From: Dioscorea cayenensis subsp. rotundata
Taxonomy: Eukaryota > Streptophyta > Magnoliopsida > Dioscoreales > Dioscoreaceae
Assembly: GCF_009730915.1 (NCBI RefSeq)
Contig: NC_052490.1
Span: forward strand, 32,860,625-32,924,624
Length of the DNA stretch: 64,000 bases
Direction: 5' to 3'
The notes under the pieces are model-generated. The model did no database searches and was not told the DNA's origin. It was given only the letters and a program-made list of their open reading frames with translations. How positions within the stretch are numbered: the stretch's first letter is position 1; each line of letters opens with the position of its first letter. Shown in pieces: positions 8,321 through 57,468 of the stretch. Both the position numbers and the translations under genes were made by a program.

Positions 8321-8569
8321 TTGGATTAAATTTAAAACTTAATTAATATCTTCATATTTAGGGCTAATTATTAGAATTTAATTTATTAAAATAAACTGAT
8401 ATTTTTTTGCCAATAAGTAGCTAACTAAATACTCCAAATTAAAAATAAATACTCTTGAAAAATTGATATTTATACATAAATATAAAATTGGAAAATCCAA
8501 ATTGTTATTAAGAGGGCCATTTTTTTTCGAAAATACACTAATAATAATTAAGCAATTATAATTATAATG

Positions 8570-8861
8570 AAAAAGAAAAGGAGAGGGCTAGAAAGCGAGG
8601 GAATCGGCCAACCGCAAAGCACCAAGCTACGTGGAACCGCAGTTGGCCCCCTACTAGCCTCCGTGGCAAGATCAACGGCCAGGATGTGTCCGCGCAAGGC
8701 GTCGATGTTTTTTAAAGGAATAAACACCGGTGAAATTACCTCCCCTATATCTAATTACCGTGAAGCCCTTTTGTACAGGGCTTGGGGTTTAGGGTTTAAA
8801 ACCCAAAGCCACGAACGTGGTGGGAATGCGAGGACGCCACCTGGCACCACTTCACCCTCGT
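8570..8861 (-). ncRNA. candidate telomerase RNA (Pol III transcript, about 290 nt)
   Basis: A GC-rich island with no convincing ORF, preceded by a plant Pol III snRNA-type promoter. Counting from the TATA box as in Arabidopsis U6 genes puts the start near 8861 (an A). T runs at 8579-8576 and 8574-8570 would end an RNA of 283-292 nt. Nucleotides about 65-78 (8797-8784) read AAACCCTAAACCCC, which can template TTTAGGG plant telomere repeats. GUGAAG (8855-8850) can pair with CUUCAC (8765-8760), enclosing the template. AAGCCC/GGGCUU forms a hairpin just after the template (8783-8763). A 3' domain has a 10-bp stem, GGCCAACTGC (8648-8639) with GCGGTTGGCC (8615-8606), closed by GGCTAG/CTAGCC (8659-8654 with 8591-8586). 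Land-plant telomerase RNAs are known to be Pol III transcripts of about this size with USE/TATA promoters. Identity is inferred; another Pol III RNA carrying a telo-box by chance is the alternative. Confidence 0.6.
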
Positions 8862-8882
8862 GATGACGTGTTGCGTCACTAC

Positions 8883-8927
8883 TTTATATAAAGTTCGTTG
8901 CTGCTGTAAAAATGGCCGATGTGGGAC
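8883..8927 (-). promoter_or_regulatory. USE + TATA, Pol III-type snRNA promoter
   Basis: On the minus strand, GTCCCACATCG (8927-8917) is an exact match to the plant snRNA upstream sequence element RTCCCACATCG. A TATATAAA box starts at 8890. The 26-nt gap between them equals the gap I count in the remembered Arabidopsis U6-26 promoter. Pol II snRNA genes have about one helical turn more. This predicts a Pol III transcript starting about 30 nt downstream, near 8861. Confidence 0.75.
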
Positions 8928-9101
8928 TATCTTGTAGTTGTGGTAAAATTAAAAAAGTGAAAACTTGTGAGGGGGATCGAGGACATGATGGTTTTGATGA
9001 ACTAGTAATGCACTTTTTATGGTAAAATAAGGTTATTGATTCCAATTATATTTTTAGCTTGCAGTGAAGGATGCTCTTTTAAAATACCTTAATTATTTAA
9101 A

Positions 9102-9137
<36 letters not shown>

Positions 9138-9586
9138 AGAATGACTAGTGTCATAAAAAAATTGACAGATGCAACGGTGTAATCATTGGGATAAATTTTC
9201 TTGTCATGCGATCTTGTCAAGAATAAAATATTTTCTCTTATAATCGAACTAATAAACTCTGTGTGAGTTATTACTTCATTAACAATGGAGTGGTTTTGTG
9301 CTCTTAAATTTTATTAGAATTTTTTTATTTTATCATAAATTTAAAATTTAAACTGCAATTATTTCATTTTCTTCAATTTAATTTTATAAAATCAAATAAT
9401 TAATTTAATCAACAGAGAGTTGTGAATTTGACGAGAAAAAGAAAGGGTTCATGTTAAAAAAAAATTACAAAAATTACATTTCTTTTTTTAATATAATAGA
9501 GATTAAAAAAAAAAAAGTAGGATGAGGTTTACTGTTTGTCCGGTGAGTTTTCTCCTTCCTGAAACCGAAGAAGAAGAAGAGGGTTT
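8928..9586. other. AT-rich upstream region of the thioredoxin z gene
   Basis: No gene seen. It holds an (AT)n microsatellite around 9104-9132 and homopolymer A/T runs. The promoter of the plus-strand thioredoxin gene must lie here, but no specific element stands out. Confidence 0.5.
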
Positions 9587-21871: not shown

Positions 21872-21944
21872 CGACTCCACTGGGGATCGAACCCAGAATC
21901 TCTGGTTCCGTAGACCAGCGCCTTATCCATTGGGCCATGGAGTC
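21872..21944 (-). tRNA. tRNA-Arg (anticodon ACG)
   Basis: A 73-nt cloverleaf on the minus strand. The acceptor arms are GACTCCA/TGGAGTC with discriminator G. The anticodon stem is CTGGT/ACCAG with loop CTACGGA, so the anticodon is ACG (arginine CGN codons). The T arm is CTGGG-TTCGATC-CCCAG. Internal promoter boxes A (TGGCCCAATGG) and B (GGTTCGATCC) are intact. There is no intron and CCA is not encoded. A run of seven Ts on the minus strand at 21850-21844 can serve as the Pol III terminator. Confidence 0.97.
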
Positions 21945-25261: not shown

Positions 25262-27478
25262 ATCAGAGTGTAGAAGTGGATTATGTACAAATTAAGCAAC
25301 AAATTGGTGCAGAAACTAATTTGATGTAGGCATAGTACCTTGTTTAATGCTGACTTTATTTTTTAATAAGAAAAAGTTTGATATAGGCATCACTTTTGTA
25401 CCTCTGGTTTGGTTTCTTCTGCTTTTCTGAATGCTTGTAATTTTTCAAAGACTCATTGTTAATTGTCAAGTATATATTCTGTGATAATTCATCTGTTGTC
25501 TCTCTTAGCAACAACTTATTATTATTATTATTTTTTTTTGGTTGAAAATTTAGAAGAATTACAGAGGTTTATTTTTCTTGAGTAAATTTCAGGCTGAGGT
25601 AATTCAATTGAAGCTAAAAATTTTAAATTCATTTTTTTTTAAAATTTCTCCATCCATACATCAATGCAAATTTGAAAATAAAAATGTGATGTATTATGTA
25701 TATATATATATATAGTCCGTAATAATTATTGAATATTAATTAAATGAATAAATAAATTTTATTAATTAATACTAAAATTATTAAATTTGTAAAAAACCTC
25801 AACTCCACGGTCTATAAAAATTTATAATTTCCTATTTTCACAGGGTACATATGTAAAAACAAAAAATGTACCTTTGACGAGAAGTGGGAAGTTACAGGGA
25901 CTTATATGCAAAAAGTAACATAGAAAACCCTTTGATCATCACTTCGTCTTGCTCCTCAGTCCTCTCAGCGATCCCGCGTTGCCTGCCTCTTCTCTCGTTC
26001 TCGCTCTTAGGGTTTCAATATCTCCGATCTCTTCTTGTAAGCCATTCCTACAATCTATCCTCTTCTTTCCCTTCTGATTTCTGTTTATTTATTTATTTTT
26101 TAGCGTTTTTTTCTGAGCAATTTTTATAGCAATGTCTTGTGATTTGTTGATTTCGTATAAATTGCAATTTTTCTGCGATTTGAAATTGTGCAATTGTTGC
26201 CATATCACTGCGGTTAATGCAATTACAGTCTATTTCTTTTCATTGATCTGTTTATTTTCAGTGATCTTTGATTATTTTCTGTGTAATATCTATTGAAGCA
26301 GTTCAATTTTCAATTTTTAGTTTATTAATTTAGTTATACTTTGGTTCTTAGAGCGCATGTTGTTTCAAAGAGATATTAGTTAGTGATGTTATATGAGGTC
26401 CTTGATTCTTCGAAATTAGAGTCTTGTTCTGTCTGTTATTTGCAATTTAATTAGGGATCTTGGGAATCCTCCAAATTCTGAAATTTTCTACAGTTTATTT
26501 GGAACATTTTGAAATTCTTTGAAAAAATATAAATGGAAATCCTGACTCGCATTGTCACCTGAATAAACTCCGTCCACCTGTGCCACAATTATCTGCAATC
26601 TCCTTATTAGGAAATGGGCAAGACAAATGTGGGAAGTAAAATGATGTTTAAAATGAAGTTATGATAATCACAAAGTTTAGGTTTCTAAAAGATGGAGCTC
26701 TTGGAGAAATTTTAGATCAAGCAAAACACCTGAATCTTAACACATGCTAGTTAGTCAGCCAAAGATTTCTTTTTTGTTCTCTTTTGTAGTTAAAATCTTT
26801 GATTCAATTCCTCTGGGCTTATGTATGCTGTTTATGTGGTGTCTTGATCTGCAAGTGCATTAACACAAAACTTTGTAAAAGCAGTAGTCTTTACATCATG
26901 TCATTTAACGAGGAAATGAGTTGTGGTGGAATGGACAAGAGGATCATTTACTACATGAAAAGATGGAGGAGGATTTAATTCATGCCCTTCATGCAAATAA
27001 TGAAAAGTTGCATGATTCTGTTGTTCAGATGCACACCATATATATACTACTCCAAGGACCAGATGTTAGTCTTAGAACTCACTTTATAACTATCCCTCTA
27101 CCTGGCAATGAGCTTTTGTATAGAACTTGTTTCTTTTTCTTCTTCCATAAAGATATATATCAAGACATGAAGCTCATAGATATGGCTTGTGGCTACCCAC
27201 AAATTGAGATTATGGTGGAACATAGTCGAAGTCCATTTTTGAGTTTGATAGAGAAAACACGTGATAAAGGCATCCTTAATCTTATTTATAAATTTCTCTT
27301 GCTATAGTCTCCTGTTTTTAATGTAATTAACCCACTGGCATACAAGTAACAGTCTCTGAGATCAAGTTCAGCTCATCTGATGGCCATCCTTTTTCTTTCT
27401 AAATTTTAAACAGACACAAGTCACTCAGGCTGTTAAAGACTTGAAGTTGACCACAAGCTGTTGTCCATATAAGCATTG
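25262..27478. other. intergenic plus 5' UTR of the SAM-domain gene
   Basis: From 25262 to about 25880 is AT-rich spacer. About 25940-26036 looks like a 5' UTR (pyrimidine-rich, TTAGGGTTTC) ending in the donor CTT|GTAAGCC. A plausible acceptor is at 27412-27413 (TTAAACAG), which would make a 5' UTR intron of about 1.4 kb. An open frame within that intron (about 26921-27307) shows no family resemblance and no ATG at its head. Confidence 0.4.
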
Positions 27479-28201
27479 ATGGATGTTGCACCCTCTTCTG
27501 TCTTAACTGATACTCCAAACTTGTTCACCGATCATGAACCAGCAGATGAGGGGGATGATTGGGTGGTAGTTAAAAAGCAAAGGATCATTTTTCTGGTTCC
27601 TCCACCATCACCATCTGTACTTCCTCGGTCTATTCCAGAAAACAGCCACCAAATAGATATTTTAAAGAAGAGAAGGCGTCGCAGAAGCTCTGGCAAGAAG
27701 CACAAAACACCCACTGAAGAAGTTCTGAAGGATGACACTCAAATGGAACATGAAGTCCACAACTCTACCGTAGTTCAGCTTAAAGACAAGCCTGAAGTTC
27801 ATGAATCTCATCAGATCCCTGTGGCAAATGTTTTACCTGCCCCAACCGGTGCTATGGAAAATAGCAATGTCCATCACAAAAGCAGGAAATTAAGACTCAG
27901 GAGTGCTTGTAGATCGACAATTGGCGCAGCCAATGTTGTGAACATTCGAGTGCGAGCATCAAACTTCGAGAAGAAGATCAGGAGACTTGGTGGCCTAAGA
28001 AAGTGGTTGGTCTCTCAGGGGCTTACTAGATTTTCAACAGTTTTTGACAGGGAAAAGTTCAGTTTGTATCAATTAGTCACTCTTACAATGAGCAAACTCA
28101 AAGATGTTGGTGTAGATGCTGTTGGACCAAGGAGAAAGTTAATTCATGCCATTGACTCTCTCTGTCAACCTTACTTCATCAAGCCCTTACAAGTGAGATG
28201 A
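27479..28201 (+). CDS. SAM-domain protein
   Basis: A single coding exon of 240 residues with a C-terminal sterile alpha motif, a helical domain used for protein-protein or RNA contacts. The N-terminal part is low-complexity: an acidic segment EPADEGDDWVVVKKQR (about 20-35), a Pro-rich stretch, and a basic cluster KKRRRRRSSGKKHK (about 63-76) that could be a nuclear localisation signal. The SAM domain is at about 169-229: LRKWLVSQGLTRFSTVFDRE, then LYQLVTLTMSKLKDVGVDA, then GPRRKLIHAIDSL, matching the family pattern of WL, F, L-LT, DL-LG and G-R-KI. The ATG at 27479 is the first in frame. No catalytic residues are expected. The specific role is unknown; nuclear location is an inference from the basic cluster. 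Confidence 0.82.
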   Translation: MDVAPSSVLTDTPNLFTDHEPADEGDDWVVVKKQRIIFLVPPPSPSVLPRSIPENSHQIDILKKRRRRRSSGKKHKTPTEEVLKDDTQMEHEVHNSTVVQLKDKPEVHESHQIPVANVLPAPTGAMENSNVHHKSRKLRLRSACRSTIGAANVVNIRVRASNFEKKIRRLGGLRKWLVSQGLTRFSTVFDREKFSLYQLVTLTMSKLKDVGVDAVGPRRKLIHAIDSLCQPYFIKPLQVR

Positions 28202-52222: not shown

Positions 52223-53834
52223 ATGGCAGGGGAGAACAGAGAGATGTATGAAGGTGGTGGAGGGTTTCAGTTCCATGATGATCTCTCCTTGTTCTTCACC
52301 GGACAAAGGAATGGGGGCAGTGGATCAGGGATGCTTGACATGCTTAAAGAAGACCCTGCTACCAGTTTCATGGGCTTCAATGAGTTCTTAGTTGGCACTG
52401 GTGATTACGGTGCATTGCCGAGGTCTTTGGAGTTGTCGTGTTGCTCGCCGGAAAACTTCTTTGGGTTAGGTGATGGGGGGAAGGGGATGGGAGAGGTGGA
52501 GGTGGAGACTAAGTGTGTTGGTGGTGTGAATTCTAATGGTGTGATTAGTGGCGGTGGATTAACTCCAGTGACACCAAACTCTTCGGTATCTTCATCGTCT
52601 ACTGAAGCAGCCGGAGAGGAGGATTCAGTGAGAAGTAAGAAGAATGATCAGCAGCAGAGTGAGAAGGGGTTGGAGATAGGTGGAGTACTTGATGATGGAA
52701 CTGACAAGTCTAAGAAAGTGTAGGTTTTCATCACTCTTTTTGCTGATATTTTTAGGGTTTTCATGTTACAATGAAGTTAAATCTTTTGTTCGATCTCCAT
52801 ACTTAAGTAATCAAGTTGAACATATGGTTTATTTTTTCCTCTGGGTTTTAAGTTTCTCAAGATCACATTGAAGCTAGCTAGAATTTCCTTTTGGTTGGTT
52901 ACTTAGCTTCATTGCAATCAAGCAATATCTTTGTCAGCTAACTAGCTATAGTTAGGTTTGGCTGTGATATCGATCGCTAGCTAGGGTGGTTGTTTACCAA
53001 GGGCGTGGAAGAATAAAAGTAGCCATCATTCAATCTTTGAGAACTTTTCCAATTGATTTGATAGCCGTAAAGGGACTTCTAGCAAGGAAGAAAATAATGG
53101 AAATGGACCAGTCTGAATTGAAGATATGGGAACACATGTTGTACTCTTTTATCAGATCTAGAGCCACAAAAAATTTACTGTTCTAATGGTTGCTCAGGAC
53201 CAAACCAAGAAGAAAGGGAGAGAAGAGACAAAGAGAACCTCGCTTTGCTTTCATGACTAAAAGCGAGGTTGATCATCTGGAAGATGGATATAGATGGAGG
53301 AAATATGGCCAGAAAGCAGTCAAGAACAGCCCTTATCCAAGGTATAATTATGATAATCTTATTCTCATATATGTGAACACTAAAATTTATACATTGCAAG
53401 TAAGTGGAATATTATATTTTTCGGCTTATTTTATCGAAATTATTGTCATTGTTAGGAGCTATTATCGGTGCACGACACAGAAGTGTTCGGTAAAGAAGAG
53501 GGTGGAGAGATCATATCAAGACCCGACGATCGTTATAACAACATATGAAGGGCAACACACTCATCAAAGTCCGGCAACACTACGCAGTAGCTCACATATT
53601 TTATCTTCTCCGAACATGATCCACCCGAGCTTCGCCCATGAGTTCATGATGCGTCAAATGCACCAACCGATGGCCTTTCATCATGCCAATGTAAATGCTG
53701 CTGCGAATGTGAACACTACTATGTATCTTCAAAGCCTAACTTCTCCACTCCAACAACTGCAACAGCTCCCTGCAGACTATGGCCTCCTTCAAGACATCCT
53801 TCCAAACTTCATGGAAAGCAGTCAATTACCATGA
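52223..53834 (+). CDS. WRKY transcription factor, group IIc
   Basis: DNA-binding transcription factor that recognises W-boxes. Three exons: 52223-52719, 53198-53341 and 53456-53834, giving 339 residues. The WRKY domain begins around residue 180 ([20 protein letters not shown]), with WRKYGQK at 199-205. The zinc site is C-X4-C-X23-H-X-H (CTTQKC ... QHTH), which with a single domain defines group IIc (AtWRKY8/28/48/57/71 relatives). The second intron splits the Arg codon of NSPYPR, the conserved R-type position. The N-terminal part is Gly/Ser-rich with a [20 protein letters not shown] motif typical of this subgroup. The C-terminal part is His/Met/Gln-rich. The exon 1 donor was placed after AAAGT (52719) because only that choice gives the domain frame; it puts KKV next to TKPRRK. 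The ATG at 52223 follows ATCATGG context. Confidence 0.94.
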
Positions 53835-56718: not shown

Positions 56719-57468
56719 TTACTCCTCGAGATTTTGAATCCCAAGCTTCTTTGCCTCCACTTTGAGAGATTTCAAGTATCTGACAGCTTCATCGAGAACG
56801 GCAGGAGTGTCTAACTGTTCACCGCCAGGTATGATTTGCCTGAGAGCCTTGACCATCTTCTTCATTCTCTCTCTCTTCCTTCCGCTACTGTTGGCACTGC
56901 TCGAGAATGAACCCTGAGCCGAAGAAGGGAAAATTGTTTTCTGAGATGTTGATCTCATTGTCGAGGATAAAGAGTATTGCGGACTGCCTCTCCAGTTGCA
57001 TGGAGTGTGACCGGTGCTTATCACATCATCATCTTCTTCTTCTTCCTCTTCAGAGCACAGCAACGCATCGATCTCTTCTGTATCTTCTTTCATTGAAGAG
57101 GAGAGTTTACCCTGGTTGTCAATAGCACTATCCAGGTTTTTGCCAATCTCATGTGGAAATGAAGGATGGATGTCAAAGCTCGGGTAAGAGAAATTATGGG
57201 CCAATGCAGGGTGAAACATGACCCGGCTTTTGTTATCTGTCTGGTCAAAGATGATGAAATTCTTGGGGCAGGTTTCCATGGGTTGGAACTCAAATCCGTT
57301 CATAAGTGGACCAGGAAAATCTCGGTTCGCCACTGGTACATCGGGAAGAAAGGAAGGTGCAGCATAGGCACCATAATTACCACCATCTCCCAGATGGTTA
57401 TAACCACCCACTTGATACCCATGAGACTGAGATCCGTTCCCCCTTAAGTACATCCAGTCACTCGGCAT
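56719..57468 (-). CDS. SAC51-like bHLH transcription factor
   Basis: Main ORF of 249 codons in one exon, starting MPSDWMYLRGNGSQ. The C-terminal bHLH-like region (about 195-243) reads GRKRERMKKMVKALRQIIPG followed by EQLDTPAVLDEAVRYLKSLK. This is the atypical bHLH of the SAC51/SACL group (AtbHLH142-145), whose basic region lacks the usual E-box contacts. An acidic run of Glu/Asp lies in the middle (LLCSEEEEEEDDD). In Arabidopsis SAC51 acts downstream of thermospermine in limiting xylem differentiation, and its translation is held back by a conserved uORF that thermospermine relieves. A matching uORF is present here in the leader, which strongly supports the family call. The ORF end (NLEE) and start have no competing frame. 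Confidence 0.9.
   Translation of the reverse strand: MPSDWMYLRGNGSQSHGYQVGGYNHLGDGGNYGAYAAPSFLPDVPVANRDFPGPLMNGFEFQPMETCPKNFIIFDQTDNKSRVMFHPALAHNFSYPSFDIHPSFPHEIGKNLDSAIDNQGKLSSSMKEDTEEIDALLCSEEEEEEDDDVISTGHTPCNWRGSPQYSLSSTMRSTSQKTIFPSSAQGSFSSSANSSGRKRERMKKMVKALRQIIPGGEQLDTPAVLDEAVRYLKSLKVEAKKLGIQNLEE

Follow-up and report, generated by a model that had tools for sequence, protein, structure and literature searches.

Fajkus et al. 2019 (PMC6765143) describe the land-plant family of telomerase RNAs (TRs) and give lengths of 240 nt for A. cepa TR and about 260 nt for Arabidopsis AtTR. According to a second study, the P4 stem of AtTR joins nts 179-187 to nts 241-249 of 262, and the pseudoknot fragment spans nts 25-150 (PMC11093817). 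Published search logic for plant TRs, as laid out in section 6 of PMC12133305, combines a USE with a template within 200 nt; the same section reports closed and open template conformers for the TR of the moss Physcomitrium patens. The plant snRNA USE has the consensus RTCCCACATCG, and in plant U6/U3 promoters the gap between the USE and the TATA box is one helical turn shorter than in those of Pol II (PMC9845283).

We analysed a 64-kb stretch of the white Guinea yam genome (contig C20, 32860625-32924624), called the window below and used as the frame for all positions. We consider it very probable that the minus-strand segment 8927-8570 is the single-copy TR gene of this species. The earlier note on this DNA had proposed the same identity, which is now upheld by the co-occurrence of USE, TATA box and template, by the single copy, by a promoter geometry equal to that of the strong U6 matches and by the presence of both TERT and TTTAGGG repeats in the genome. 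From this best explanation we infer transcription, the RNA ends, the folding into domains and binding by TERT. The locus is very probably a fresh example of an already known kind of gene, the land-plant TR family: membership is supported by the promoter, the template and the agreement with the telomeres, and the predicted 3' domain suggests it as well. The genome of this crop thereby gains a concrete and apparently single-copy TR gene, read from raw sequence, and a member of the Dioscoreales is added for the comparison of plant TRs. Among the literature matches listed for telomerase RNA, Dioscorea, monocot and Dioscoreales there was no paper on a yam TR; such a sequence may be published all the same.

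With Arabidopsis AtTR/AtR8 and the Allium TRs, the yam locus shares a USE and a TATA box at Pol III spacing, G-rich 5' and C-rich 3' ends, a template in CCCTAAA phase, the size class, a predicted closing stem and a T-run terminator. The predicted order of its domains, first that of the template and then a candidate P4-P5-P6-like one, would be the same as well. The predicted yam RNA, of about 283 nt, is somewhat longer than the TR of A. cepa and AtTR, and 14 nt of its template are in phase, as opposed to 9 nt (CTAAACCCT) in AtTR. Its P4-like arms would lie at nts 200-208/271-280 of ~283 and its inner closing-helix domain at nts 36-165, a placing similar to that of the corresponding AtTR elements. 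Two further traits may set the yam locus apart: a template in an inverted repeat able to pair at 11/12 positions, and an internal TTTT.

All features of the gene are on the minus strand. The USE, GTCCCACATCG at 8927-8917, is the sole exact match in the 64 kb, and the consensus RTCCCACATCG, or even CCCACATCG, gives one match on the two strands of the window, at the same positions. The TATA box TATATAAA (8890-8883) follows 26 nt past the USE, and a second TATA register is present at 28. At the other end, TTTTCTTTTT (8579-8570) reads as a Pol III terminator made of TTTT and TTTTT, at 8579-8576 and 8574-8570, or nts 283-286 and 288-292 counted from 8861. The exact plant snRNA USE, the TATA box with 26-nt spacing and the terminal T-runs are all found as had been claimed.

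The yam U6 genes, which encode an unrelated RNA, provide an internal reference for this promoter. The genome holds seven U6 matches, five at 110-113 bits and two weak ones at 52.5 and 44.7 bits. At each of the five strong matches the same 11-mer, GTCCCACATCG, starts 65 nt before +1 and a TATA follows 28 nt after the USE; at the U6 locus L046 the TATA occurs at both 26 and 28, as in the TR candidate. No USE was found at the two weak matches. The geometry of the candidate promoter, common to it and the five strong U6 matches, is therefore that of a type-3 Pol III promoter. Since the U6 distance from USE to +1 (65 nt) was applied, the start is placed at 8862, with the nearest purine at 8861, and the predicted Pol III transcript covers about 283-285 nt (8861-8577). 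The monocot element RGCCCR was absent from 8900-9400; its absence there says little, because 4/5 of the strong yam U6 genes likewise have none in the 400 bp examined on their own strand. Termination is where the candidate departs from the U6 genes: its TTTTCTTTTT is weaker than their T-runs, which have at least seven T in a row. Moreover, an internal TTTT at 8801-8798 (nts 61-64), equal in length to the first T-run of the terminator, is a possible premature terminator that could stop Pol III early, and it counts against full-length transcription.

In the mechanism that we propose, Pol III would be recruited by SNAPc bound to the USE, together with TATA-binding factors placed as in U6 promoters. 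Transcription would run from 8861 or 8862 to TTTTCTTTTT and yield an RNA of ~283-285 nt. This RNA would be bound by TERT via the template/pseudoknot domain and the P4-P5-P6 domain, and part of TAAACCCTAAACCC would serve as the template for the TTTAGGG repeats that TERT adds to chromosome ends.

This template, TAAACCCTAAACCC at 8798-8785, comprises two CCCTAAA repeats and is the only in-phase run of at least 12 nt in the window. The candidate thus has 14 nt in CCCTAAA phase, but not quite as first described: the proposed 14-mer AAACCCTAAACCCC consists of 13 nt in phase plus an extra C, and the in-phase 14-mer begins one base earlier. Under a first-order Markov model of the window (both strands, per 64 kb), 0.012 USE 11-mers and 0.014 telomere runs of 13 nt are expected; for a USE, a telomere run and a correctly spaced TATA together, the expectation drops to about 2e-9.

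We extended the search to the whole assembly of 584,211,761 bases in 2249 contigs. The pattern RTCCCACATCGN{20,30}TATAN{60,90}TAAACCC, whose gaps were set with the TR locus in view so as to include it, gave one match in the 584 Mb, the TR locus itself, and its reversed control gave 0. The telomere string CTAAACCCTAAACCCC alone is unspecific, with 87 genome matches vs 2 in the control; the TR locus is outside these 87 because T precedes TAAACCC there. A DNA search with the 358-bp locus returned no second copy in the genome at E 0.001. By these tests the locus is the best TR candidate in the assembly. The earlier note had named a better one elsewhere as refuting its reading, and the combined-pattern and DNA searches yielded none; a TR with another spacing, or one in an assembly gap, is possible. 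A loosened form of the USE-TATA-TAAACCC pattern also produced 34 matches in viral (8) and prokaryote (26) contigs, which we take as chance, a judgement based on the printed stretches. The full 11-nt USE occurs in 3/34 of them (L014, L017 and L029), none of these with a long telomere run, and one match on a viral contig (L002) has a 13-nt telomere run but a USE with one mismatch.

The genome also contains the expected partners of a TR. The TERT RNA-binding domain has one genome match (contig C18, E 7.5e-32), located in an open frame of 449 codons. Scanning the first and last 3 kb of contigs C1-C20 revealed TTTAGGG arrays in terminal orientation at 2/40 contig ends: that of C3 carries 55 TTTAGGG repeats and none of the 6-nt type, and that of C16 carries 30 TTTAGGG (two reversed), degenerate variants and five repeats of the 6-nt type. 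The remaining 38/40 ends have at most three hits each. Given these arrays, the template of the candidate agrees with the host repeat, at the level of two contig ends. The earlier prediction of a host with ordinary TTTAGGG telomeres, rather than one of the switched Asparagales, also holds, as Dioscorea belongs to the Dioscoreales. At the right end of C16 (L087, 24106377-24109376), TTTAGGG is mixed with TTTTAGGG variants, as in a degenerate telomere or a subtelomere. Separately, contig C4 has internal CCCTAAA arrays at about 22.084-22.088 Mb, ~0.2 Mb from the contig end; the overlapping loci there (L039-L042) hold 227-261 CCCTAAA and 1-2 six-base variants each.

The predicted transcript stands out in composition. 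Its GC content is 0.54 (8577-8861). The flanking stretches tested have 0.18-0.28, the promoter stretch 8862-8927 has 0.44 and the window as a whole 0.33; when a 285-nt frame is slid across the 64 kb, 2.2% of its placements are at least as GC-rich. For the 285-nt RNA the predicted folding energy is -107.3 kcal/mol (z -2.56), and 2/200 shuffles come as low. The fold z-score by itself is modest. The RNA is predicted to be more stable than 35/35 GC-matched 285-nt windows sampled from the 64 kb (best -100.9), some of which overlap it. By domain, nts 12-199 around the template reach z -3.0 with 0/200 shuffles as stable, and the 3' domain (nts 200-283) reaches z -2.1 with 8/300 shuffles as stable.

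A G-rich 5' and a C-rich 3' region, judged by eye, are present along with the terminator, as in a TR, and the two would be joined by an outer closing stem, GAGGGU (8859-8854) with GCCCUC (8588-8583), at a mean pair probability of 0.96. Inside it, P1-like closing helices are predicted at 8845-8840/8683-8678, 8835-8832/8691-8688 and 8830-8827/8696-8693 (mean pair probability 0.92-0.98). A hairpin CCAC/GUGG just 5' of the template (8820-8809; 0.97) is a possible template boundary element. Directly 3' of the template, the hairpin AAGCCCU/AGGGCUU (8783-8763) also has a mean pair probability of 0.97, in line with the earlier proposal of a hairpin at this place. Stem enumeration further yields a candidate P2, CCCUGUA (8780-8774) with UAUAGGG (8749-8743), and a candidate P3, AAAGGG (8771-8766) with UCCUUU (8719-8714), which would cross it. 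The P2/P3 pseudoknot is only a candidate, because its best stems are rivalled by a local hairpin of greater stability and leave a long loop between their strands.

Folded alone, the 3' domain gives a P4-like stem of 9 bp with one bulge (8662-8654/8591-8582), stacked on P5- and P6-like stems in this single-sequence prediction. In the full-length fold the outer stem, which competes for 8588-8583, takes part of P4, and forcing P4 costs 3.5 kcal/mol. The P5-like stem, 8648-8638/8616-8606, has 11 bp, a P6-like tip and a mean pair probability of 0.94. It contains the 10-bp stem noticed before at 8648-8639/8615-8606, which is present but not perfect: nine pairs are Watson-Crick and one is U-G.

We translated the TR gene in antisense and sense frames and compared the products with a protein collection. 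An antisense frame has the relative P0121 (91% over 74%), a sense frame the relative P0123 (85% over 96%). In the simplest reading of the protein letters, as opposed to observed DNA, P0121 is exactly reproduced if the loop that follows the template is shortened by one A and an A-rich stretch gains three bases and has one base changed. P0123 follows from two extra A in the A-rich stretch, bar two residues: the first, where the start codon lies at nt 101, and one past the terminator. Where these relatives overlap the gene, zero edits fall in the P4-like stem, the P5-like stem or the 3' sides of the closing helices, silent changes being invisible. P0121 covers the RNA from nt 64 on and P0123 from nt 101 on, so they say nothing on the promoter or on P1's 5' side. 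As close relatives or alleles, both attest the element in other data, with the length changes in loops; covariation is beyond their reach. One helix of the minimum-energy fold, CGGUGUUU/AAACAUCG (8729-8722/8710-8703), was discounted because the simplest reading of P0121 disrupts it. An antisense coding exon was considered as well. Pfam gives no match for the 103-codon frame at 8552-8863, whose sole relative at E <=1 is P0121. Again in the simplest reading, a length difference of 1 nt puts P0121 out of this frame, which favours an RNA over an antisense protein.

The surroundings of the template offer a more speculative observation. An inverted repeat pairs 8810-8799 (upstream arm, GGCUUUGGGUUU) with 8790-8779 (downstream arm, AAACCCCAAGCC) around the 8-nt loop UAAACCCU. 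The helix said to enclose the template therefore exists, and is longer than had been described, with 11/12 positions paired. Among 200,000 shuffles of the 5' flank (30 nt), 0 reach 11 pairs; any telomere-like G-rich flank would pair, because half of the hairpin's 3' arm is the template. When closed, the hairpin exposes one repeat plus one base (UAAACCCU) in its loop. Without constraints, the predicted fold leaves the template half buried in a smaller hairpin, GGGUU/AACCC, with a mean probability of 0.64. Forcing the closed hairpin costs about 5.8 kcal/mol (-101.5 vs -107.3), and keeping template nts 64-78 unpaired has about the same price (-101.4). If only the core nts 65-74 are opened, the cost is 2.7 (-104.6), so the full closed hairpin is not favoured by the fold model. 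Because both claim AAGCC, the closed hairpin and the downstream AAGCCCU/AGGGCUU are mutually exclusive, and the RNA would therefore alternate between a closed form, in which it is inactive, and an open form used for copying. Tentatively, and with the odds in our opinion clearly against it, the yam TR may hide its own template, the closed/open switch being a regulation built into the TR sequence. The template of Physcomitrium patens TR may likewise be hidden in a closed state; its conformers were probed experimentally, whereas the yam state is predicted from sequence alone. The yam TR would offer a sharp test of TR self-regulation by folding the template away.

Three other explanations of the locus have to be weighed. 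Its internal TTTT and weak terminator would suit a TR pseudogene or minor paralogue, the working TR being at another site of the genome or missing from the assembly because of a gap, and gaps are likely, since 584 Mb are split over 2249 contigs. We nevertheless give this a very small chance: no second copy appears at E 0.001, nor a second USE+TATA+TAAACCC site at the searched spacings, none of the promoter, template, main stems or terminator looks damaged, and the 3' domain is kept in near relatives. Proximity to a protein-coding gene suggests another reading. The N-terminal part of VPS16 lies in an open frame at 8102-7308 on the same strand (Pfam PF04841, E 5e-32), with its ATG about 470 bp past the transcript end, and the segment could be its promoter region, having a telo-box (AAACCCTA) and chance snRNA-like elements, with no separate RNA. 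Such a promoter hardly accounts for a USE and a TATA spaced as in the genome's U6 genes, for a GC-rich structured stretch sitting between the predicted start and the terminator, or for a co-occurrence of elements that is unique in the genome, and we consider it scarcely credible.

The locus could, lastly, produce some different small RNA made by Pol III or Pol II (U3, U6, MRP, SRP, snRNA or snoRNA) and bear a telomere-like motif by chance, for a USE and a TATA drive such genes too (PMC12133305, section 6). This is to our mind extremely improbable. At gathering scores, the Rfam search of the window gives only the tRNA at 21872-21944, and no covariance-model match to U3, U6, MRP or SRP. When 8400-9100 is searched permissively, Rfam has eight matches, all below threshold; the best of them (E 0.045) is on the opposite strand, and one, a snoRNA at E 5.6, is on the TR strand. 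A telomerase family is likewise missing from the Rfam matches (window at gathering; 8400-9100 at E <=10), in a library that may lack a plant TR model. The telomerase RNA thus stays the preferred reading of the segment.

A few further genes can be recognized in the window. The tRNA gene at 21872-21944 (minus strand) scores 60.3 bits and is the only Rfam gathering match. An open frame at 27476-28201 (plus strand) has a SAM domain (PF00536). At 52223-53834 (plus strand) lies a probable WRKY transcription factor gene, with PF03106 matched in two stretches in the open frame 53190-53834. Finally, a bHLH144-like gene occupies 56719-57468 (minus strand), its 249 codons forming one open frame; among the best 120 of 316 hits to its protein, the closest named ones are from Dioscorea, with 69-74% identity.
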